Assembly (NCBI RefSeq): GCF_010725485.1
Contig: NZ_AP022598.1
Location: 2,976,001 to 3,040,000, forward strand
Direction of reading: 5' to 3'
Origin: Mycolicibacterium parafortuitum
GTDB lineage: Bacteria > Actinomycetota > Actinomycetes > Mycobacteriales > Mycobacteriaceae
DNA length: 64,000 bases
Position 1 is the first letter of the stretch, and each line of letters starts with the position of its first letter. The translations under genes were made by a program, and so were the position numbers. This document shows positions 6,462 to 17,346 of this stretch, piece after piece. The notes beneath the pieces are model-generated. The model was not told the DNA's origin, did no database searches, and was given only the letters and a program-made list of their open reading frames with translations.

Positions 6462-7052
6462 TCACATGATGCTCGCTCCGCCATCGACGACGAGCGTGGC
6501 GCCGGTGATGAAGCTCGCGCGACTGGAGGCGAGGAAGGCGATTGCTTCGGCGATTTCAGCAGGTTTGCCGGCGCGTCCCAGGGGATTCGGCTCCGCCGGT
6601 ATCTGCGTCACCACGGTGTTGACGCGGATGCCCGCGGAGCCGAACTCGGCGGCCCAGGTTCGGGTCAGTGCGGCGACGGCACCTGTCGCCGCCGACGCGA
6701 CGTTGACGATCGCCCCGCCACCGTGGCGGGTCATGCAGGGGGCGACGGCGGCCACCAAAAAGTACAGACCGGCCAATGCATCAACGTCCACGACGTCGGC
6801 GTTGTTGACCAGGATGTCGACCGGCACCTGCCGGGCGAGGTGGTCGACGGATTCCAGGTCGGCCAGGTCAGCGGCGATGAACCGGGCGCCTGGACCGAGT
6901 TCGTCGACGGCGGCCCGGCCTGCGCCCGTCTGTCGGCCGCTGAGGATGAGCTGAGCACCGGCCTGCTTGAGCAGGCGTGCGGTGACCCGTCCGAGTTCCG
7001 AGGCGCAGTCGGTCACCAGGGCCGTTCGTCCCGGCTCCTCCGAAGTGCTCAC
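6462..7052 (-). pseudogene. Degenerate short-chain dehydrogenase/reductase lacking the catalytic Tyr-Lys segment
   Basis: An open frame of 196 residues clearly descended from an SDR; its closest relative in the window is the intact SDR at 12130-12852. Relative to that protein three in-frame parts are missing or altered. The nucleotide-binding TGGTAGIG is TDCASELG; about 20 residues after DILVNNA are gone; and the whole stretch from the catalytic Ser region to YxxxK is collapsed to [19 protein letters not shown]. The C-terminal GATLVVDGG is kept. Dehydrogenase activity is therefore unlikely, yet the frame is open and has a good ribosome site (AAGGGAG before GTG 7052) and a copy of the 23-bp promoter element. 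It may be a pseudogene or a non-catalytic retained protein. Confidence 0.75.
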
Positions 7053-7107
7053 AACCTGCACTCCCTTCGGTGGCATTCGACAACAGTGGCAGTCGGGGCA
7101 CCGGCAG

Positions 7108-7130
7108 GGACCACGGAAAACCCGTAGTCC
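7108..7130 (-). promoter_or_regulatory. Accessory-region operator, copy 1
   Basis: A 23-bp imperfect palindrome: read toward the SDR gene the arms are GGACTACGG and CCGTGGTCC around GTTTT (8 of 9 bases pair). It is identical to the copies at 15205-15227 and 15276-15298, and all three also share CTG on the gene-proximal side. Here it lies 55 bp upstream of the degenerate SDR start and in the divergent gap with the LuxR-type regulator. It is probably an activator or repressor site. Confidence 0.75.
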
Positions 7131-7235
7131 GCTGGTAGCCCTGCATCCGTCGTGCAGACGTGACAGGATTTGCCGATAACCGCGGCCGGGGGGCGTGGGC
7201 TGCACCGGCGTTCCAGACAGGTGGTCATCTCGATC

Positions 7236-9980
7236 GTGACGGCGATCCACGACCGAAGCAGTGGGGTGTTGCCGGGCCGCACCGCCGAATGCCTGGCGCT
7301 GCGTGAGTTGTTGGACGCGCTGCGCTGCGGGCGCAGCGAAGTGCGAGTGCTGCTGGGTGAGGCCGGTATCGGGAAGACGGCGCTGCTGACGTTTCTTCGC
7401 GAGTCCGCCGCGGATTGCACCGTGTTGACCGCGGTCGGAGTCGAATCCGACATGGAGTTGGCGTTCGCGGGCCTGCAGCAGTTGTGCGCCCCGTTGATGG
7501 ATCACCGGCTGGGTTTGCCGCCACCGCAGCGGGAGTCGTTGGAGGGGGCCTTCGGGCTCAGCGATACCGGCGCCGCGCCGAACAGGTTCCTGGTCGGGTT
7601 GGCGGTGCTCGGGCTACTTGCGGCCGCCGCGGCGGACCGACCCGTGGTGTGTGTCGTCGACGATGTGCAATGGCTGGACCAGGCGTCTGCGCAGACGCTG
7701 TTCTTCGTCGCGCGCCGTCTGCAGGCCGAGTCCGTGGGTTTGGTCTTCGCGTCGCGTACCCCGATCGACGGCACCGCGGGGTTGCCCACCCTGGTGGTGG
7801 GCGGGCTCGACGACGGTGACGCGCGCAGGTTGTTGGAGTCGGCCTTCCCAGGACGACTGGATGCGGCGATCCTGGACCGGATCGTCGCCGAGGCGCGGGG
7901 AAACCCGTTGGCGCTGTTGGAGACTCCGAAGGACGTCACCGCCCTGCACGCGGGTACCGTCAGCGCCGGCGTCGAAGAGCACTACCGCGTCCTGATCGCC
8001 GATCTGCCCGACGACACCCGAATGCTGCTGCTCGTCGCGGCCGCCGAACCGGTGGGAGACCCTGCCCTGCTGTCGCGTGCGCTGGCGTATCTGGACCTCA
8101 AACCTGCCGCGATGACGCCCGCGTACGACCTCGGTCTGATCGCGGTCGACACCAGGGTGCAGTTCCACCACCCGCTGGCGCGATCGGTGGCGTACCGCTG
8201 TGCCACCGGCGATCAGCGACGGCTCGCGCATGCGGCGCTGGCGGCGGTCACCGATCCCGCTGTCGACCCGGACCGGCGGGCCTGGCACCGCGCGCTGGCC
8301 GCCGACTCCCTCGACGAGCAGGTGGCACTCGAGCTGGAGAGCTCCGCAGGCCGGGCGCTGCAGCGCGGCGGAACGGCCTCTGCCGCAGCCTTTCTGACGC
8401 GCGCGGTGGAGTTGACGCCCGACCCGGCCCTCCGTGCCGGCCGCGCCCTGGCCGCTGCCGAGGCCCACCGCGAGATCGCATCGTTCGACAGCGCGCGCCG
8501 CCTGTTGGCCACCGCGGCACTGGGGCCGCTGACTGACCTGCAACGAGCCCGGTCCGCGCAACTACGGACCCGACTGGCGTTCGCCTCTGCACGCGCCGTC
8601 GGTGACCCCGACGCGCTGGTGACCGCCGTGTCGCAGTTCACGGCGGTAGCGGATCAGTTGATGGCGCTCGACACCGCCCTGGCCACCGAGGCGTACCTGG
8701 AGGCCCTCAGCGCGGCGATGTACGTCGGGCGCATCGGAGACGGGTTGGCGGCCGAGGTCGCCATCACCGCCCGCGCCGCGCTGGCGAAACTGCAGCCGAG
8801 GACCCCGCTGGATCTGGTGACCCATGCGCTGGCTCACCGGTTGGCCGTGGGTGCCGTCGAGGCGATGCCGGCCATGCGCCGCGCCCTGGCCGCGCTCAAG
8901 GAGTCCACCAGGGATCTCGGCCAGGGATGGTTTTGGCGGGCATTCCCGCTCGTTCACGATTGCCTGATCCATGAGACTTGGGATGACGGCTGGCGTGATG
9001 TTTCGGCGCACGCGGTGAAGCTGGCCACTGACAGCGGGACGCTGGCGCTGCTGCCGTCGGCGCTGCTATCGCGGGCCGGTGCAGCCGTGGAGAACGGTGA
9101 ATTGGCCACGGCCGGTGCGCTTGTCGCCGAGGCCAACGACCTGGCGATCGCCATCGACTACGCCCCGTTGAAGTACCACTGGATCATCGTGGCGGCCTGG
9201 CGGGGCGACGAAGCCGAAGCCACCCGATTGACAACGGCAGCCCTGGAATCCGGCCGGGCCCGTGGCGAGGGTCGGGTGATCGGGCTGGCGTACTACGCCA
9301 CCGCCGTGCTCAACGTGGGGCTGGGCCGCTACGCCGACGCCCTGGCTGCGGCCCGTCATGCCGGTGAATACGACGACCTCGGGTTCTATCCCGAGTTGCT
9401 GGCCGAGATGGTCGAGGCTGGTGTGCGCTGCGATGACCGTGTGGCCGCCGAGCAGGCCTTCGCCCGCCTACGGGAGCGGACGCGGGCGGCCGGCACACCC
9501 CGAGCCCTGGGCTCACTGGCGCGCTCGCGGGCGCTACTCAGCAGCGGCGAGCAGGCTGAAGCGCTCTACCGGGAGGCGATCGGCCATTTCGAGGCGACGT
9601 CACAGCGGATCCAGCTGGCCCGGGCCCGACTGCTGTACGGGGAGTGGTTGCGCCGTAACGGCCCCGCCACTGTCGCCCGAGTGCCGCTGCACCTCGCCCA
9701 CCAGGAGTTCGTCCAGATGGGATCGATGGCCTTCGCGGAGCGGGCCCGCCGCGAATTGCAGGCTGCCGGCCAGAAGACCCGCAAGCAGCCGACGGCCGCC
9801 GGTGATGAATTGAGCCCGCAGGAGCGGCAGATCGCCGAGCTGGCAGGCCAGGGCCTGACCAATCAGGAGATCGCCGGTCAGCTGTTCATCAGCGCGCACA
9901 CTGTGGAGTGGCATCTGCGGAAAGTGTTCACCAAATTGGGCATTCGATCGCGCCGCGAGCTCCGGCGGAAGTTCGGCTAG
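7236..9980 (+). CDS. Large ATP-binding LuxR-family (LAL/MalT-type) transcriptional regulator
   Basis: Regulator of about 914 residues. An N-terminal AAA-type ATPase has Walker [12 protein letters not shown] (residues about 41-51) and Walker [13 protein letters not shown]; the long middle is alpha-helical and TPR-like; and a C-terminal LuxR helix-turn-helix occupies about the last 60 residues ([20 protein letters not shown]...[17 protein letters not shown]). Such proteins are usually ATP-dependent activators responding to a small ligand. The start is uncertain: GTG 7236 is preferred (GGTGG 11 nt upstream), with GTG 7221 and TTG 7170 possible. It is divergent from a gene carrying the 23-bp palindrome and lies beside the other two copies' operons, so it is the best candidate to bind them. 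Its stop overlaps the convergent kinase gene by 4 bp. Confidence 0.88.
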
Positions 9981-11467
9981 CCGCCCGGGGCGGGGGCCTC
10001 CAGCGGCAGGCACACGATGAACCGGGTGTCGCCCGGCCTCGACCGCACGGAGATGAGGCCGCTGTGCCGGTCGACGACGATGCGCCATACCAGATCAAGC
10101 CCGAGCCCGAGGCCGTCCCCGACGGGCTTGGTGGTGAAGAACGGGGTGAAGATGCGGTCGATGATGTCGTGCGGAATGCCGGGTCCGTCATCGCAGATCT
10201 CCACCCGGATCATCGAGTCGTTCTCCCGCCGGGTGCGCACGGTCAGCGTGCCGCGGCCGTTCATCGCGTAGAGGGCGTTGTCGATCAGATTGGTCCACAC
10301 CTGATTGAGATCGGCGGGATAGCAGTGCAATTCGGGCAGGGTCTGGTCGAGGTCCTTGACCAGGGTGACCGGATGGCCCATCATGGCGATCTTGTCGCCG
10401 AACATCAGCACGGTGCTACGCAGCATCTGGTGGACGTCGATGCACTGGTAGGGGCCGCGATCCATCTGAGAGTAGGGTTTGGCGCCGTTGACCACCGCGG
10501 CGATGCGGGCGCCGGCCTCGGCGATCTCCCGGATGCGCATCTCGCTGTCGATGAACTGTTTGAGCCAGCTGATGGCGCACTCCAGGCACGCCGGTGCGAC
10601 GGCCGCCGCGACGCGGTCCAGCCAGCTGACGTCCAGACCGGCCTCCACCAGGGTGGGGGCGTAGCGCCAGCTGTCGTCGATGCCGTGCTCGCCGAACCAG
10701 TCGTCGATTGCGTCTTCGCGGTCTGCGGCCTCCATCGGTGAGAGTGTTTCTGCTGCAGTGCTTGCGGTGATGTCAGCCTGCAGCGTGAGCAGGGCCGGCA
10801 GCGCGTCCGGGTCGGTCACCGCCAGGACACCCAGATTGCGGTGCGACTCGGCCAAGCTGTCGCGCAGGTCGGCAACGGCCCGGACCGTGGCCGCAGCGGG
10901 GTTGTTCAGTTGATGGGTGAGTCCGGCTGTCAGGGTGGCCAGGGCATGCTGCTTCTCTTGCAGGCCCAGGAGCTGTCGCTGGCGCAGCCCGCCGATCGCG
11001 GTGCTCTCCAGTAGGTGCACCGCGACGGGCCACACCGTCTGCATGAACCGAGCAAAGAAGTCGGCGGCCACCACGAACAGCCGCGACCGCCGTGTCACCC
11101 GCACGGTGACGTCGTAGACGGTGGCGCATCCGGCGATCGCGCCGAAGTAGGTACCGCGCTCGGATGTACGGTGCAGTTCGACGTCGTGGGCCCCCGAGCG
11201 CTTCGTCGTCACCACGTCGCCGCCGTCGAGAAGTACGTAAAACGATTGCGCCAATCCACCTTCCCGGCACACCGGACCGGCGTCGACGTCGGTGATGATT
11301 CCGTTGGAGCCCAGAGCGTCGAGTTGCTCGTCGGTGAGGAACTCGAAGAGGAACACCGTACGCAGCTCGTCCTTGAGGCTCTGCGACGCAACGCAGCGGC
11401 CCGGGTCGAGGAGCTCGCGCCACCCCGCCATGGGTCGGCCGGTGCGCAATGGCGGCTGCACGTCCAC
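9977..11467 (-). CDS. Soluble histidine kinase with N-terminal cyclic-nucleotide-binding-like domain
   Basis: Protein of 496 residues without membrane segments. Residues about 30-150 form a cNMP-binding/CRP-like beta-roll (FLTDEQLDALGSNGIITDVDAG...FYVLLDGGDVV). The dimerisation/phosphoacceptor segment is LTAGLTHQLNNPAAATVRAV, where the His is the likely phosphorylation site. The C-terminal ATPase has the N-box DLNQVWTNLIDNALYAM, G1 DDGPGIP and G2 GLGLGLDLVWRIV. No response regulator is adjacent. It is last in the six-gene minus-strand operon; its GTG follows the nitroreductase stop after one base. It may sense a nucleotide or redox state and feed an unlinked receiver or the neighbouring LAL regulator; both ideas are inference. 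Confidence 0.87.
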   Translation of the reverse strand: MDVQPPLRTGRPMAGWRELLDPGRCVASQSLKDELRTVFLFEFLTDEQLDALGSNGIITDVDAGPVCREGGLAQSFYVLLDGGDVVTTKRSGAHDVELHRTSERGTYFGAIAGCATVYDVTVRVTRRSRLFVVAADFFARFMQTVWPVAVHLLESTAIGGLRQRQLLGLQEKQHALATLTAGLTHQLNNPAAATVRAVADLRDSLAESHRNLGVLAVTDPDALPALLTLQADITASTAAETLSPMEAADREDAIDDWFGEHGIDDSWRYAPTLVEAGLDVSWLDRVAAAVAPACLECAISWLKQFIDSEMRIREIAEAGARIAAVVNGAKPYSQMDRGPYQCIDVHQMLRSTVLMFGDKIAMMGHPVTLVKDLDQTLPELHCYPADLNQVWTNLIDNALYAMNGRGTLTVRTRRENDSMIRVEICDDGPGIPHDIIDRIFTPFFTTKPVGDGLGLGLDLVWRIVVDRHSGLISVRSRPGDTRFIVCLPLEAPAPGG

Positions 11468-11468
11468 G

Positions 11469-12119
11469 TCAGTCCTCGAGAAACACGACGTTCGCGGTCA
11501 CCGGATTGCGTGGCGTGTTGATGCTGTTGGCCGGAAAAGCCGGATCGGCGTAGCCGATGCAGATTCCGCACAGCACGGTGAGTTCGTCGGGAATGTCGAG
11601 TTGCTCGCGCACCACGTCCGGGTAGAGGGCGGTGGATACCTGGACACAGCTGTCGAGGCCCCGTTCGGTCAACGCCAGCAGCAGGGTCTGCAGGAACATA
11701 CCCACCCCGATGGCGTCGGGCAGCCCCAGATCGCGGTGCATACATACGATTCCGGCCACCGGGGCGTGGAAGAAATCCCAGTTGCGCAGCTGCGCGGTCC
11801 AGCGGCCCTCGCTGTCGTCGCGAGCCACGCCCATGGCGCCGTACAGCAGGGCGCCGAGCTCGCGGCGCAGATGGCTGTGCGAGTCGGGCAGACCGAGATT
11901 CGGGGGCGGGGTGGTGCGCACCTGCTTGGCCAACGCAGCGCCGAGACGAACACGCCGAGCACCGGAGGCCAGGAAAACCCGCCAGGGTTGGACATTGGAG
12001 TTCGAGGGTGCGCGCATGGCCAAAATCAGCGCCTCCTGCAGTAACTCCTGCGGTACGGGTTTGTCCGGCAGAAACATTCGGGAGGAGTGCCGGCGAAGCA
12101 CCACGTCGTCGAAGTCCAT
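11469..12119 (-). CDS. Nitroreductase-family FMN oxidoreductase
   Basis: FMN-dependent oxidoreductase of 216 residues. The nitroreductase opening MDFDDVVLRRHSSRMF and RAPSNSNVQPWRVFL carries the FMN-phosphate-binding Arg and Ser/Asn residues; the later segment IGVGMFLQTLLLALTERGLDSCVQ is typical of the NfnB/BluB-like fold, and the protein ends with a conserved GYADP region. Start chosen at 12119 because AGGAG lies 6 nt upstream and the frame before it has no family similarity. It probably reduces nitroaromatics, quinones or enones with NAD(P)H. It lies 10 bp after the SDR in the operon controlled by the 15205 element. Confidence 0.88.
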   Translation of the reverse strand: MDFDDVVLRRHSSRMFLPDKPVPQELLQEALILAMRAPSNSNVQPWRVFLASGARRVRLGAALAKQVRTTPPPNLGLPDSHSHLRRELGALLYGAMGVARDDSEGRWTAQLRNWDFFHAPVAGIVCMHRDLGLPDAIGVGMFLQTLLLALTERGLDSCVQVSTALYPDVVREQLDIPDELTVLCGICIGYADPAFPANSINTPRNPVTANVVFLED

Positions 12120-12129
12120 CGTTCTCCTA

Positions 12130-12852
12130 TCAGACGGCGGTGCCGCCGCCGTCGACGTGCAGGGTGGTTCCGGTGATGAAGCTGGCACGCGGGGAGACCA
12201 GAAAATAGATGGCCTCGGCGATCTCGGTGGGATCTGCGGTCCGCCCGAGCGGGAGTGCGCGGCCGAGTTCGTCGTTGGTTTCCCCCCATTCGGCCGCGAC
12301 ACCCTCGGTGGCGGTCGGGCCTGGCGCGACGTTGTTGACTCGGATGTTGTGCGGACCGAACTCGACTGCCCACGTTCGGGTCAACTGCTCGACGGCTGCT
12401 TTGGATGCGCTGTACACCGACGCGCCGGGAACACCTTTGGACGCCACCATGGAGGTGACGTTCACGATGGCCCCGCCGCCGCGTCGGATCATGACGGGCG
12501 CCGTCTCGGCCACCAGGAAGTAGAGCCCTCGGACATTGGCGGCGAAGGTGTGTCCGAACTCGTTCTCGTCCTGGTCGATGGTCAAGCCGGCAGGGAAGCG
12601 AGCGGCGTTGTTGACCAGGATGTCGACCTCGTACTTCTTGGCCAGCCGTTCCACACCGGCGGGGTCGGCCATGTCGACGGCGGCGAATTGTGCTGTCGGA
12701 CCGAGTTTTTCCTTTGCCTGCTGTCCGCGTTGGGAGTTGCGGCCGGTGATGATCACCGAGGCGCCCCCGTCCACCAGTCGCTGGGCTGTCGCAAAGCCGA
12801 TGCCGGCGGTCCCGCCGGTGACCAGGGCGGTACTGCCGGCAAGTTCGGTCAT
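12130..12852 (-). CDS. Short-chain dehydrogenase/reductase (SDR)
   Basis: Classical SDR of 240 residues with all family elements: the nucleotide-binding TGGTAGIG near the N-terminus, the structural NNA, a catalytic Ser in VNVTSM, catalytic YSASK, and the C-terminal FITGTTLHVDGGG. It should interconvert an alcohol and a ketone with NAD(P)H; the substrate is unknown. The ATG at 12852 overlaps the stop of the upstream NmrA-like gene (ATGA), so it is translationally coupled; four codons further upstream another ATG is possible. This is the intact relative of the degenerate SDR at 6462-7052. Confidence 0.9.
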   Translation of the reverse strand: MTELAGSTALVTGGTAGIGFATAQRLVDGGASVIITGRNSQRGQQAKEKLGPTAQFAAVDMADPAGVERLAKKYEVDILVNNAARFPAGLTIDQDENEFGHTFAANVRGLYFLVAETAPVMIRRGGGAIVNVTSMVASKGVPGASVYSASKAAVEQLTRTWAVEFGPHNIRVNNVAPGPTATEGVAAEWGETNDELGRALPLGRTADPTEIAEAIYFLVSPRASFITGTTLHVDGGGTAV

Positions 12853-13589
12853 CGGTCCAGCCACTCTGCGAGCCGGGTGGTACCCAGCTCGGCGCCATCG
12901 CCGGTGACCAGGCTGTTCTGCTGTACCGGGACACCGAAGTAGGTGGCCTGCGGATCGACGATGACAGGTAGATTCTTACCCTGAGCGGCGAAGACGGCGC
13001 GGGCCAGGTCGGCAAACGACATTTTCTCCGGCCCGCCGAAGTTGAGGACAGCGTTGTGCGGCGCCTCGGTGGCCACCCGCGCGACCACGCCCGCGACCTC
13101 GGCTGCAGCAACGGGCTGGATCAAGGCGTCCGGCGCATGGACCTGACCGTCGACCACCAGTGATCCGGCGATTCCTTCGGTGAATTCGTGGAACTGGGTG
13201 GCCCGCACGATGGTGTAGGGCACGCCGGAGTCGGCCACCAGTTGCTCCTGGAGATGCTTGCCGTGGAGGTAGCCGTCGGCCTCGATGCTGCCGACACCGA
13301 CGATCGACAACACCACGTAGTGCCGCACATCGGCCTTCTTGGCTGCCGCGAGCAGCGTGGTGGCCGAGGCGGTGAAGAACTCCAGTGCCGGTCCGGGTTC
13401 CAGGGTGGGGGAGTTGAGTACGTCGACGACCACATCGGCGCCCTCGAAGGCAGCGCCCACACCGTCTCCGCTGACAGCGTCGACCCCGGAGGACCGAGAA
13501 GCGGCTTTGACGTGATGTCCTGCGGCGCGAAGTAATTCGACAACCTGGGCGCCGATCAGGCCGGTAGCGCCCACCACGGTGATCTTCAT
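12849..13589 (-). CDS. NmrA-like/atypical SDR NAD(P)-binding protein
   Basis: Protein of 246 residues with an N-terminal Rossmann motif KITVVGATGLIGAQVVELL and the atypical-SDR layout (HYVVLSIVGVG, then the YLHGKHLQEQLV region that carries the Tyr-x3-Lys-like element, and PYTIVRATQFHEF). Such proteins are NAD(P)H-sensing regulators or quinone/isoflavone-type reductases. The longer frame up to 13895 has no family similarity. The ATG at 13589 overlaps the cupin stop (ATGA). It is third gene of the six-gene operon and probably acts on the same substrate class as the flanking oxidoreductases. Confidence 0.87.
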   Translation of the reverse strand: MKITVVGATGLIGAQVVELLRAAGHHVKAASRSSGVDAVSGDGVGAAFEGADVVVDVLNSPTLEPGPALEFFTASATTLLAAAKKADVRHYVVLSIVGVGSIEADGYLHGKHLQEQLVADSGVPYTIVRATQFHEFTEGIAGSLVVDGQVHAPDALIQPVAAAEVAGVVARVATEAPHNAVLNFGGPEKMSFADLARAVFAAQGKNLPVIVDPQATYFGVPVQQNSLVTGDGAELGTTRLAEWLDR

Positions 13590-13999
13590 GACTGTCCCTT
13601 CTGAAATCGGCGGTTCTTGCGTTGTTCGAGTTCTGCGCCGTCGACGAGGACGAACATGTCGACGCCCGGCTGACAGAGCATGGTGACCAGGAAACGTAGC
13701 GGGATGTCCTCGCGGTTGTTGCCGTCCGAGTAGTGGATGACGTCGCCGCCCGGTTCCCAGAACGCCTCGCCGGCCTTGATGACCCGCGGTGCTTCCCCCT
13801 CGAGCTCGAAGAGCATCTCTCCCTCGAGGACGTAGCCGAAGCACGGCCCACCGGGATGACGATGCGGTGGCGCGCCTGTGTCTCCCGGACCCCATTCGAT
13901 GATCGCGGTCATCGCGTCGGCGCCCTCGGGGATGAGGGGCGGTTTGACCGATTGGATGACGGTCATCGCCGTCATGAGCTTGTCCATGACGTCAGACAT
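13586..13999 (-). CDS. Small cupin-domain protein
   Basis: A 137-residue single-domain cupin. Motif 1 is PPHRHPGGPCFGYVLEGEMLF, giving two His and a carboxylate for a metal, and motif 2 is GEAFWEPGGDVIHYSD. The closest described relatives are AraC-type sensor cupins and small dioxygenase-like proteins; the actual role cannot be read. The ATG overlaps the end of the upstream FAD oxidoreductase gene by 8 bp and the stop overlaps nmrA-like by 4 bp, so it belongs firmly to the operon. Confidence 0.85.
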   Translation of the reverse strand: MSDVMDKLMTAMTVIQSVKPPLIPEGADAMTAIIEWGPGDTGAPPHRHPGGPCFGYVLEGEMLFELEGEAPRVIKAGEAFWEPGGDVIHYSDGNNREDIPLRFLVTMLCQPGVDMFVLVDGAELEQRKNRRFQKGQS

Positions 14000-15158
14000 C
14001 GACTGTTCCTCTCTTCAGATTCTTCTGTCGTTTACCGCCTTTGGGCCAGAAATAGCTGCCCGGGTTGCGGGCCTCCTTGGCGAGGAAGGAGACCGTGCCC
14101 TTGCACACTGATTCCTTGATGGTGGCGGCGAGGCGACCGCCGAGGTGCAGCGGCAGCGCTTCGTCGTTGAAGTGCGACATCTGGATGGTGCCGGCGTGGC
14201 GGCCCAGGCTGATGCACTGGCCCACCGAGGCCGGGTTCAGGTTCTCGGGAGCGTTCCCGTCGAGTCGCGCCAGGACGGTGTCGGCGGCGTGGGAGGCCAG
14301 CGGCATGGCGAGTTGGCAGCTCATCCGCAGCGGCTGTGCAGACGGTGAGGCCGCGTCTCCGGCGGCGATGATCGCGGGATCGTCGACGCTGGTGAGAGTT
14401 TCGTCGGTGAGCAACCGGCCCAGTCGGTCGGTGCTCAGTCCGCTGTCGGCGGCCAGTGTGGGGACGCCGAAACCCGCGGTCCACACGGTGGCCGCACTCG
14501 GTAGTTCCTTGCCGTCCCGCAACGCGATTCGGTCTGGCTGAACTTGCGTGACGGTTTCGTTGTCGACGACGGTCACACCGAGCTTGCTCAGGCGCTTGGC
14601 CACCGAGCGGCGGCCGCCCTTGGCCAGCGAGGGGCCCAGCGCACCGGTGACCAAAGTGACGTTGCGGCCGGCTTCGGCGAACTCGGAGGCGGCTTCGATA
14701 CCCGTAAGGCCGCCGCCGACCACCACGATCGGCGCCTGGATCGGAATGTCGACCAGGCGGGCGGCCAGCCGCTGCGCAGCCTCTAGTTCGCCCAGCGGAT
14801 AGGCGAATTCAGCGGCACCCGGTATAGCGGCCGGGACCGGGGCGGTGCTGCCGACGGCATAGATCAAGTAGTCGTAGTCAAGGGTTGCGCCAGAGGACAG
14901 CCGCAGCGAGTGAGCGGCGGCGTCGATGCGCTCGGCACTGTCGACCACCAATGTCACCGAGCCGGCCAGCACCGTCGAATAGTCCTCGATTGCGTCGTCG
15001 TTACCGGCGACCAACTGGTGCAACCGGATTCGTTCGACGAACTGCGGCCGCGGGTTGACCAGGGTGACGTCGATGTCGGGGCGTTGGCGCAGCCGGTTGG
15101 CGGCCAGGACACCGGCGTATCCGCCGCCGACGACCACGATGCGCGTGGTGGTGCTCAT
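13992..15158 (-). CDS. FAD-dependent pyridine-nucleotide oxidoreductase (NDH-2/AIF-like)
   Basis: Flavoprotein of 388 residues with two dinucleotide-binding motifs: FAD-binding RIVVVGGGYAGVLAANRL at the N-terminus and NAD(P)-binding PIVVVGGGLTGIEAASEF in the middle, then the FAD motif PAIIAAGDAAS. No redox-active CxxC is seen, so it resembles NADH:quinone oxidoreductase type 2 or apoptosis-inducing-factor-like proteins rather than disulfide reductases. There is no obvious C-terminal membrane helix, but a basic tail is present. AGGAG lies upstream of ATG 15158. It is the first gene of the operon FAD oxidoreductase-cupin-NmrA-SDR-nitroreductase-kinase, 46 bp downstream of the 23-bp palindrome. 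Confidence 0.88.
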   Translation of the reverse strand: MSTTTRIVVVGGGYAGVLAANRLRQRPDIDVTLVNPRPQFVERIRLHQLVAGNDDAIEDYSTVLAGSVTLVVDSAERIDAAAHSLRLSSGATLDYDYLIYAVGSTAPVPAAIPGAAEFAYPLGELEAAQRLAARLVDIPIQAPIVVVGGGLTGIEAASEFAEAGRNVTLVTGALGPSLAKGGRRSVAKRLSKLGVTVVDNETVTQVQPDRIALRDGKELPSAATVWTAGFGVPTLAADSGLSTDRLGRLLTDETLTSVDDPAIIAAGDAASPSAQPLRMSCQLAMPLASHAADTVLARLDGNAPENLNPASVGQCISLGRHAGTIQMSHFNDEALPLHLGGRLAATIKESVCKGTVSFLAKEARNPGSYFWPKGGKRQKNLKRGTVDV

Positions 15159-15204
15159 CTGTTTCTCCTCACGCCTACGACGCTGCCATCCAGGGGCTGG
15201 TCAG

Positions 15205-15227
15205 GGACCACGGAAAACCCGTAGTCC
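15205..15227 (-). promoter_or_regulatory. Accessory-region operator, copy 2
   Basis: Second identical copy of the 23-bp palindrome, 46 bp before the first gene of the six-gene minus-strand operon and oriented the same way relative to it as copies 1 and 3 are to theirs. It lies back to back with copy 3, 48 bp away, so one intergenic region drives both directions. Confidence 0.75.
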
Positions 15228-15275
15228 TCGGCCCGTGGCGCGCTACACCCGGTAGTCACGCGCTGCATGCGGCAA

Positions 15276-15298
15276 GGACTACGGGTTTTCCGTGGTCC
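15276..15298 (+). promoter_or_regulatory. Accessory-region operator, copy 3
   Basis: Third copy, in the opposite orientation to copy 2, 31 bp upstream of the esterase ATG at 15330. The 26-bp block including the trailing CTG is identical in all three copies, while the DNA on either side is not conserved. Confidence 0.75.
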
Positions 15299-15329
15299 CT
15301 GGTCTGCGCTGTGCTGGAAGGCTGCCGGT

Positions 15330-16277
15330 ATGAGTGATCACGTGCTGGAACCGGCGGCCCAGGAGTTCGCCGATGCGACCGCCACACCACCGTTCCTTTA
15401 TGAGTTGGGCCCAGAGGGCGCTCGCAAGGTGCTCGACGATGTGCAGGCTGCTCCGATCGACAAGCTCGACGTCGACGAGCGGTGGGTCACGGTGCCCTGC
15501 GAAGACGGCGACGTGGCCGTGCGGATCGTGGCGCCGCCCGCCGCGCATGGTCCGCTGCCGGTGGTTCTCTACATCCATGGCGGGGGCTGGGTGCTAGGCA
15601 ATGCGGCGACCCATGACCGCCTGGTGCGCGAGTTGGCGGTCGGTGCCCACGCGGCAGTGGCGTTCGTGGAGTACGACCGCTCACCGGAGGCGCGGTACCC
15701 GGTGGCGATCGAGCAGGCCTATGCCACCGCCCAATGGATTACGGAGCGCGGCGCCGGCGAGGGGTTGGACGCCGCGCGGATGGCTGTGGCCGGTGATTCA
15801 GTGGGCGGTGACATGGCCGCTGCGGTGGCGATCATGGCCAAACAGCGCGGCGACGTCACCTTCATCCATCAGTCGCTGTACTACCCGGTGACCGACGCCG
15901 CACAGGACACCAGCAGTTACCGAGAGTTCGCCGAGGGCCCGTTTCTCACAGCGAAGTCGATGGCGTGGTTCTGGGACTGCTATCTGCCCGACGCGGCGAC
16001 GCGCTCGGAGATCACCGCCTCGCCGCTGCGCGCCACTGTCGACGACCTGCGGGATTTGCCGCCGGCGCTGGTGATCGTCGACGAGAACGACGTCCTGCGC
16101 GACGAGGGCGAGGCCTATGCCCGGAAACTGACCGCGGCCGGTGTGCGCACGACGAGCGTCCGGTTCAACGGCATCATCCACGACTTCATGATGCTCAACC
16201 CGCTCCGCGGCACCGCGGCAACCACCGCGGCGGTCGAACTGGCGGTCCACACATTGCGGAAAGCCTTCGAGAAATGA
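15330..16277 (+). CDS. Alpha/beta-hydrolase of the hormone-sensitive-lipase family (esterase)
   Basis: Esterase/lipase of 315 residues. It has the HGGGW oxyanion motif (YIHGGGWVLGN), nucleophile GDSVGGD, an acid in VDENDVLRDEG and a catalytic His in IIHDFMML. Mycobacterial Lip/Nlh proteins of this family hydrolyse short acyl esters. The ATG at 15330 is chosen because family similarity starts there and GGAAG lies upstream. It is controlled by operator copy 3 and followed 43 bp later by an epimerase-family gene, so the two probably form an operon. Confidence 0.9.
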   Translation: MSDHVLEPAAQEFADATATPPFLYELGPEGARKVLDDVQAAPIDKLDVDERWVTVPCEDGDVAVRIVAPPAAHGPLPVVLYIHGGGWVLGNAATHDRLVRELAVGAHAAVAFVEYDRSPEARYPVAIEQAYATAQWITERGAGEGLDAARMAVAGDSVGGDMAAAVAIMAKQRGDVTFIHQSLYYPVTDAAQDTSSYREFAEGPFLTAKSMAWFWDCYLPDAATRSEITASPLRATVDDLRDLPPALVIVDENDVLRDEGEAYARKLTAAGVRTTSVRFNGIIHDFMMLNPLRGTAATTAAVELAVHTLRKAFEK

Positions 16278-16320
16278 ACACAACCGATGAGATTGCCCCG
16301 ACCAGATCTCGTCGACGCGG

Positions 16321-17346
16321 ATGAGTGACAAGTCCTTGGTGCTGGTAACCGGTGCCGCCGGCTATGTCGGCAGCCACGTCGTCAGTCAACTGCTCCGCCG
16401 GCGATACCCGGTGCGCGCCGCCGTGCGTAGCCGAGCCCGAGCCCGGGAACTCTCCGAAACCGTTGCCGGGCAGGGGCTGGACCCGGGACTGATCGAGATG
16501 GTGCCGGCCGACCTCACTGCTGACGACGGGTGGCCGGAGGCGGTCGCCGGAGTCGCAGACGTGCTGCATATCGCCTCACCGTTCCCGGCCGAAGCTCCTG
16601 AGAACGACGATGAGATCATCATCCCCGCGCGCGAAGGCGCCCTACGGGTCCTGCGTCACGCCCGCGATGCGGGCTGCCGCCGGGTCGTCATGACGTCCTC
16701 GTTCGCCGCCGTGGGGTACTCCGACAAAGCGGGCGAGCACTGGACCGAGGACGACTGGACCGACCCGGACGACGACAACACCGCCTATATCCGGTCCAAG
16801 GCCATCGCCGAGCGCGCAGCATGGGACTTCATCGAAACGCAGGGCGGCGGGCTCGAACTGACGACGTTGGTGCCCGTGGGTATTTTCGGTCCCACTCTCG
16901 GCCCGCATCTGTCCACGTCGGTGAAGTTCATCCAGTCGATGCTCACCGGTGCTCTCGATCGAGTTGCTCCGCAGTACTTCGGCGTCGTCGACGTGCGCGA
17001 CGTCGCGACCGCCCACTTGCAGTCGCTGGCGACGGCCGGCGCAGCCGGTGAACGCATCCTGCTGGCAGCCGACGGACCTGCGGAGAGCTTTCTGGGGATC
17101 GCGCGCATCCTGCGCGAGCGTCTGGGTGTCGCGGCGGCGAAGGTCCCCACCAGCGAGTACAGCGAAGCCGAAGTCCGCGAACTCGCTCAGACAGTGCCGG
17201 CGTTGCGCGAGGCGGTGTCTCGGCTCGGTCGGCGCCCGCAGATCAGCAACGCAAAGGCCAAGGCGGTGCTGGGCTGGGTACCGCGTCCGGTTGGCGAGAC
17301 CATTCTTGATACCGCGCAGTCGCTGATCGCCAACGACCTGCTGTGA
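16321..17346 (+). CDS. NAD(P)-dependent epimerase/dehydratase (dihydroflavonol-reductase-like extended SDR)
   Basis: Extended SDR of 341 residues. It has the N-terminal motif LVTGAAGYVGSHVV, a catalytic Ser region MTSSFAAVGY, catalytic YIRSK and a substrate-binding C-terminal half (LVPVGIFGPTLG, FGVVDVRDVATAH). The resemblance is to dihydroflavonol-4-reductase and aldehyde-reductase-like proteins that reduce carbonyl substrates with NADPH. It follows the esterase on the same strand and ends the accessory block. No strong ribosome site precedes ATG 16321. Confidence 0.87.
   Translation: MSDKSLVLVTGAAGYVGSHVVSQLLRRRYPVRAAVRSRARARELSETVAGQGLDPGLIEMVPADLTADDGWPEAVAGVADVLHIASPFPAEAPENDDEIIIPAREGALRVLRHARDAGCRRVVMTSSFAAVGYSDKAGEHWTEDDWTDPDDDNTAYIRSKAIAERAAWDFIETQGGGLELTTLVPVGIFGPTLGPHLSTSVKFIQSMLTGALDRVAPQYFGVVDVRDVATAHLQSLATAGAAGERILLAADGPAESFLGIARILRERLGVAAAKVPTSEYSEAEVRELAQTVPALREAVSRLGRRPQISNAKAKAVLGWVPRPVGETILDTAQSLIANDLL

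Follow-up and report, generated by a model that had tools for sequence, protein, structure and literature searches.

A 23-bp element that probably serves as the activator site of a LAL-type LuxR regulator in Mycolicibacterium parafortuitum and as a member of a wider candidate operator family

We analyzed a 64,000-nucleotide stretch of DNA from Mycolicibacterium parafortuitum (contig NZ_AP022598.1, positions 2,976,001 to 3,040,000; hereafter the window), in which a gene for a large ATP-binding LuxR-type (LAL) regulator is surrounded by enzyme genes, and a 23-bp element, GGACTACGGGTTTTCCGTGGTCC, precedes three of the transcription units. The gene list of this block given in an earlier note, which had been made from the letters of the window, was borne out by domain searches with one refined label, that of the kinase. 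The genes and the putative operator copies are listed below (SDR, short-chain dehydrogenase/reductase; FAD, flavin adenine dinucleotide; cNMP, cyclic nucleoside monophosphate; HSL, hormone-sensitive lipase; HSD, hydroxysteroid dehydrogenase).

6462-7052, minus strand: degenerate SDR, predicted pseudo-enzyme, 196 aa (domain search, motif search and dN/dS)
7108-7130, minus strand: putative operator copy 1, exact match to GGACTACGGGTTTTCCGTGGTCC, facing the degenerate SDR gene; predicted -10 CACTGT at 7088-7083 (minus), 19 bp on
7236-9980, plus strand: LAL-type LuxR regulator, 914 aa (Pfam AAA_16 at 12-167, LuxR helix-turn-helix at 858-910)
9977-11467, minus strand: histidine kinase with an N-terminal cNMP/DNR-like domain (Pfam; PDB ZraS 3.2e-21 and, weakly, DNR 1.2e-4)
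11469-12122, minus strand: nitroreductase, NfnB-like (Pfam; PDB 3gr3 3.8e-33, NfnB 1.7e-28)
12130-12864, minus strand: intact SDR (Pfam, NCBIfam)
12849-13592, minus strand: NmrA-like NAD(P)-binding protein (Pfam; PDB NmrA-family 8r2j 2.3e-10)
13586-13999, minus strand: cupin (Pfam Cupin_2)
13992-15158, minus strand: FAD oxidoreductase, NDH-2/FSP1-like, of the quinone-reductase type (Pfam; PDB best YjlD 1e-22, FSP1 1e-11)
15205-15227, minus strand: putative operator copy 2, exact match, facing the FAD-oxidoreductase operon; predicted -10 CAGCGT at 15185-15180 (minus)
15276-15298, plus strand: putative operator copy 3, exact match, facing the esterase-epimerase pair; predicted -10 AAGGCT at 15318-15323
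15330-16277, plus strand: HSL-type esterase (LipP1-like, below the cut-off of the LipP1 model)
16321-17346, plus strand: epimerase or 3beta-HSD-like extended SDR (domain search)

The regulator has the size and architecture of its class. It comprises 914 residues from the start at 7236, or 936 if an upstream TTG start is used (the class spans about 800-1100), with an ATP-binding domain (AAA_16, 1.9e-17) carrying the Walker motifs GEAGIGKT and VVDDVQWLD, and a C-terminal helix-turn-helix (GerE, 4.1e-16, residues 858-910). Residues G44, G46, K47, D142 and D143 are invariant in an alignment of 34 sequences. The Pfam search returned neither a SARP nor a receiver domain. Its nearest named relative, 97% identical, is from Mycolicibacterium parafortuitum. 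The LAL family is little studied in mycobacteria, though it is present in 176 of 297 same-genus genomes (E <= 1e-150), and the genome at hand has five LAL homologs.

A genome-wide search found exactly three exact copies of GGACTACGGGTTTTCCGTGGTCC in the 6,044,196 bases, all inside the LAL block; the next-best match has 2 mismatches and an unrelated spacer. Identity among the three copies extends to 26 bp, and their flanks are partly alike (75-76% over 51-61 nt). At each copy the same strand of the element faces the gene, at 55 bp (GTG 7052), 46 bp (ATG 15158) and 31 bp (ATG 15330) from the start codon. In these points (three identical copies, 26 bp of identity, common orientation 31-55 bp before three enzyme units) the earlier description held. 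Shuffled windows averaged 0.08 matches when up to 3 mismatches were allowed, and a count of six was reached in none of 100 shuffles. With a looser pattern, at up to 2 mismatches, the genome yielded 12 matches and the reversed control 9, so that most of the looser matches would be due to chance. Beyond the window copies, two of them have both a -10 and a fitting neighbor: L133, which adjoins an LAL paralog and scores 43.1 with the matrix described below, and L134. Of the remaining seven, three were retrieved with their surroundings.

We then compared the distribution of the element with that of the regulator. All 12 named Mycolicibacterium and Mycobacterium loci with an LAL at least 63% identical (L006-L017) carry one to three copies at up to 5 mismatches. 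The gene content around them has been rearranged and exchanged, with the element kept: the LAL of L011 has the oxidoreductase, cupin and NmrA genes on its other side, inverted relative to the window and with their own copy; in L012, L013 and L017 copies stand before other genes; and L014 and L015, which have only part of the block within 22.7 kb, retain the copy before the cupin gene. Among the 297 same-genus genomes, 57 match at up to 3 mismatches (reversed control, 11), including all 19 that possess an LAL at least 63% identical. We retrieved sites for 46 of the 57 (48 regions), the other 11 being of the types of L006-L017 or the window. A site with an intact left arm and T-tract is present in 48 of the 57, and 47 of these 48 genomes have the LAL family, as against 176 of 297 overall, although the LAL is distant at several loci. 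The element occurring without the regulator, the outcome that the earlier note had named as damaging, is thus rare. In the other nine genomes the sites, with altered left arm or spacer, were judged to be chance matches, and one of these genomes has the LAL family; this class was assigned by eye with LAL presence already in view, and G534 (L124) was moved into it only after its region had been retrieved. The matrix gives eight of the nine a score below 14, and L130 a score of 23.4 with almost no -10. The single genome with a good 23-mer and no LAL family at E <= 1e-150 is G562 (L097), whose site lacks a -10 (score -13.2) and looks like a relic.

The arms alone match in 66 of the 401 genomes of the family, in most cases around an unrelated spacer, and the reversed control matches as well; copies with the T-tract were found in that scan in only six genomes, all of the same genus. 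A wider pattern matched 32 of 52 same-genus genomes and five of the 349 remaining genomes, with 2 of 401 matched by the reversed control. Two of the five (G050 and G067, from one other genus) may be real.

The sites share a promoter geometry. For this analysis, 74 sites (up to 4 mismatches, nine chance loci excluded) were reduced to 47 with flanks less than 65% alike; transcription starts and -10 boxes are sequence predictions throughout. In 46 of the 47, NANNNT follows the site at a distance of 19 or 20 bases, whereas other offsets give a median of 5 of 47 with the same one-base tolerance. When the chance loci were restored, 46 of 54 sites had a -10, with none among the seven non-redundant chance sites. 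At the -10 position TGNNANNNT occurs in 33 of the 47 sites, and at any other position in at most one. The three window hexamers each lie 19 bp from the site and are each preceded by TGN. The promoters thus have an extended -10 of the sigmaA type and no recognisable -35. Since the distance of 19-20 bp to the -10 is fixed, the center of the site is predicted near -43 and its right arm on the -35, that is, the position of a class-II activator, which binds across the -35 with constant spacing to the -10. The same register puts the predicted RNA start of the esterase unit on the A of ATG 15330, so that its mRNA is predicted to be leaderless. Of 83 first open reading frames, 27 have their start codon 11-13 nt past the first -10 base, as in leaderless mRNAs; this count is an upper bound, as those at L107, L109 and L110 are not proteins and those at L111 and L115 probably start further on. 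The in-register ATG of the window SDR is absent in L007 and L016, which makes GTG 7052 its likelier start.

The same arrangement recurs at paralogous regulators. We built a matrix from the 47 sites together with their -10, judged absence of an operator at a score of 18, and applied it to 40 LAL paralog loci (50-58% identity) picked irrespective of sites. It matched 37 of the 40; reversed, it matched none of them, and nothing over 2.69 Mb of locus sequence. These loci contain 41 LAL genes, and 31 of them have a site no more than 100 bp from their 3′ end, on the LAL strand and directed toward the following gene. One weak match came from 36 loci whose LAL relatives are more distant (L018-L053); among these, the weakly scoring site next to the Nonomuraea LAL of L018 (18.9) counts as a possible operator only. 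The embedded LAL as regulator of the enzyme units, as the earlier note had proposed, agrees with the co-occurrence in 12 of 12 loci and 19 of 19 genomes; its description of the system as self-contained proved too narrow, because the same type of putative operator accompanies many paralogous LALs across the genus.

In a tree of 106 LALs, made by a quick method and with many rows included because of their site, 74, the window LAL among them, form a clade with support 100, of which 69 bear an operator; one LAL outside it bears a weak operator. The recognition helix HTV[ED][WY]HLRK goes with an operator in 70 of 74 LALs, and other helices in one of 32 (106 of the 111 LALs, after removal of exact duplicates and of those under 850 aa or without a readable helix). 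As the LALs from L085-L123 were chosen by their site, the unbiased parts of these counts are the 40 paralog loci and the 12 named loci. The genome at hand follows the same rule: its two LALs with this helix (the window and L179) have an operator, and those with SARTVQYHLRK, SPRTVEWHLSK and SHRTVAAHLYK have none in the flanks examined (about 1.5 kb on both sides of L179-L181, and about 40 bases past the LAL 3′ end for L182). Helix variants go with particular right arms: TVEYH pairs with CCGTGATTC in 5 of 5 cases, and four TVDWH LALs, close relatives, have CCGTGGGCC, with other arms at TVEWH.

The left arm and the T-tract hardly vary among 85 non-redundant sites, while the right arm drifts (CCGTGGTCC, CCGGGGTTC, CCAGGGTTC, CAAGGGTCC, CCGTGATTC). 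The arms pair at 6.6 of 9 positions, compared with 6.65 for shuffled arms, with no compensatory changes, so that neither an RNA stem nor strict two-fold symmetry appears to be selected. The imperfect palindrome of the earlier note is therefore present in the window copies but is not the conserved feature. At 11 of the 85 sites, a run of two to four 7-bp CYACGGA units, each allowed 2 mismatches, leads in register into the left arm; because the unit nearest the site shares GGA with that arm, which favors a match, only runs of at least two count. Tandem units of this kind, up to four, stand upstream of the operator in L152, L116, L171 and L113.

The element, its fixed promoter geometry, its co-occurrence with an LAL clade and its association with the recognition helix are observed directly in the sequences. 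We consider it likely from them that the neighboring LAL uses the 23-bp element as its activator site, and that the element is a member of an operator family belonging to one mycobacterial LAL clade. LAL binding, activation, the STAND mechanism, the inducer and the chemistry are inferred. The LAL would be kept inactive as a STAND ATPase; binding of an inducer and ATP would lead to its assembly and to DNA binding through the C-terminal LuxR helix-turn-helix. The left arm, GGACTACGG, would occupy positions of about -54 to -46 and the right arm the -35, with the T-tract between them. Given the extended -10 at a fixed 19-20 bp and no recognisable -35, the LAL would then recruit RNA polymerase as a class-II activator, and the window LAL would turn on three units encoding reductases, an esterase, the histidine kinase and the catalytically dead SDR.

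A chance origin of the element was ruled out by the window shuffles, the genome-wide search, the search of 297 genomes and the matrix test at paralog loci. Several observations weigh against assigning the element to the LAL. Five LALs of the 74-row clade are without an operator at score 18, L164 reaching a weak 15.9, and a fifth TVDWH LAL (L152) has no operator near it. The association of helix and arm follows the tree, and so reflects few independent events. Real-looking sites at L107-L110, L122 and L134 have no LAL in the surrounding 11-18 kb, where the regulator would therefore have to act at a distance. Five of these, located between a MarR-type gene and the next gene (L107:3062-3084; L108:5009; L109:7676; L110:8175; L122:8409), have an operator and -10 that point antisense into the MarR-type gene. 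Sites with no LAL nearby would fit a reading in which another regulator, a repressor or a global factor, binds the element and the LAL is only its neighbor; our neighborhood searches used the window proteins only. We regard this explanation as improbable, because the site tracks the LAL clade and the recognition helix across paralogs and, in the flanks examined, within the genome at hand, and because of its placement just past 31 of 41 LAL genes at loci picked irrespective of the site.

The fixed spacing to the -10 and the ECF (extracytoplasmic function) sigma genes among the targets could also suggest that the element is the -35 core promoter of an alternative sigma factor. However, the conservation spans 23 bp and starts about 18 bp ahead of the place of a -35 hexamer, more than a -35 element would cover, and the -10 has the A2 and T6 of the sigmaA hexamer, often with TG in front. 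By eye, a CGTC-like -10 lies about 22-23 bp from the right arm, farther than the 15-18 bp spacing of ECF promoters; we think this origin very unlikely. An RNA hairpin in a leader, acting as an attenuator or a protein-binding stem, is more improbable still: in the window copies the sense strand could fold into a 9-bp stem that includes one U-G pair and is closed by a 5-nt loop, but the element lies upstream of the predicted transcription start, and across the 85 sites the right arm changes without compensation. Just as little credence is due to a dispersed repeat, for example of a mobile element. Three identical copies in one genome with flanks that are partly alike would fit such a repeat, but the spacing to the -10 is fixed, all three window copies face genes, and throughout the genus the copies are retained and change along with the regulator.

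If the element is read as the operator of the LAL, a broader picture can be drawn, which we offer tentatively and hold, taken as a whole, to be somewhat less probable than its opposite: that the LAL clade and its operators are paired switches co-evolving across the genus. Most LAL genes of the clade would then have a promoter of their own no more than about 100 bp downstream, with the 23-bp operator centered at about -43, no -35, an extended -10 and often a leaderless mRNA. The H-T-V-[ED]-[WY] recognition helix, together with the right arm, would set the specificity of each pair. Certain pairs would drive ECF sigma factors in two-tier LAL-to-sigma cascades, and in some, tandem 7-bp half-sites would replace the palindrome, the pattern expected of a STAND assembly that contacts DNA head to tail, in place of a symmetric dimer.

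Ten first genes behind operators at other loci were scanned. Four encode ECF sigma factors (L117, L163 and L174, and L133 in the genome at hand), one each a nitroreductase, an SDR, an NmrA-like protein and a carboxymuconolactone-decarboxylase-like protein, and two have no Pfam match. The site of the second LAL in the M. parafortuitum genome faces an ECF sigma factor gene (L133:8557-9165, near 4.848 Mb); an LAL-to-sigma cascade is possible there and at L117, L163 and L174. In the same genome, a variant operator (L134:9228-9250, at about 0.37 Mb, score 23.1) precedes a leaderless-type nitroreductase gene with no LAL homolog in the 18 kb retrieved around it, a possible remote target. The MarR-type gene of L107 and the SRPBCC-like gene next to it were named by eye; at the MarR locus coding constraint is seen in the MarR frame only (variable sites 25/24/87 by codon position), and the operators there possibly drive a regulated antisense RNA. 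In six genomes (L165, L167, L169, L172, L175 and L176) the first gene after the operator encodes a protein of 266-318 aa beginning M[AS]TILLQTTI; that of L165, the one scanned, has no Pfam match.

Within the window block, the six-gene run encodes the FAD oxidoreductase, cupin, NmrA-like protein, SDR, nitroreductase and histidine kinase. The last had been labeled a cNMP kinase: it is a kinase with a cNMP-type domain, which scores just below the Pfam cut-off (26.8 versus 27.5 bits), and the label is now refined to histidine kinase (HATPase_c, 3.3e-22). A search for Y-[ASTG]-[AS]-[ASTG]-K found no catalytic motif in the degenerate SDR, in 13 of 13 relatives. In eight comparisons its ratio of nonsynonymous to synonymous substitution rates (dN/dS) was 0.09-0.33, versus 0.13-0.30 for the intact SDR, and higher in six of the eight. 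The missing motif and low dN/dS indicate by sequence a conserved, catalytically dead pseudo-enzyme, retained under purifying selection that is somewhat relaxed. This protein has an operator copy of its own, and in L011 an SDR with YSSTK occupies its place. The gene set would suit the processing of reactive or foreign organic compounds; judging from the enzyme families, the chemistry may be reduction of carbonyl, quinone or nitro groups, as the earlier note proposed.

Together, the motif, the fixed promoter geometry, the recognition-helix rule and the list of targets turn the LAL family into predictions that can be tested at the bench, and an operator family of this kind would link many genes for reductases, esterases and ECF sigma factors to a regulator. 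The earlier note could not match the element to a described operator, and our search of open-licence papers likewise gave no match. The searches, which may overlook subscription work, turned up no operator of a mycobacterial LAL and no occurrence of four 13-base pieces of the motif; the string GGACTACGG does occur, with none on this subject among the matches listed.

Several known regulators invite comparison. The helix-turn-helix profile of the window LAL matches the solved structures of DevR/DosR and NarL; these are two-component response regulators, whereas the window LAL is without a receiver domain in the Pfam search. The halves of the DevR box, GGACT and AGTCC, are about 2 bp apart, compared with 13 here. 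The SARP part of SARP-LAL regulators reads heptamers. Those of Streptomyces are likewise LAL-type and are described with heptameric direct repeats (PMC5930380), comparable to the 7-bp units near promoters at 11 of our 85 sites, but the class is named for an extra SARP domain, which Pfam does not find in the window LAL. MalT of E. coli, a STAND ATPase and the LAL prototype, is also a large ATP-binding activator of the LuxR family (PMC4381067), and inducer-driven assembly is the mechanism that we propose here as well; it differs in targets, operator and inducer, and its sites are reported as direct repeats (PMC6099782). TpdR of Rhodococcus jostii TMP1 is described as a 788-aa LAL activator of tpdABC induced by methylpyrazines, with a 15-nt direct repeat, TnnAAnnGCGGAnTC, as its proposed site (PMC6099782). 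This repeat is absent from the three window promoters at up to 2 mismatches, and its 24 matches at that level in the window are fewer than the 43 in shuffles. TpdR differs from the window LAL in size (788 versus 914 aa) and in operator (the direct repeat TnnAAnnGCGGAnTC versus the 23-bp element), and resembles it as an LAL-subfamily LuxR activator of a catabolic operon in a related actinobacterium, with repeats at and above the -35 region (PMC6099782).

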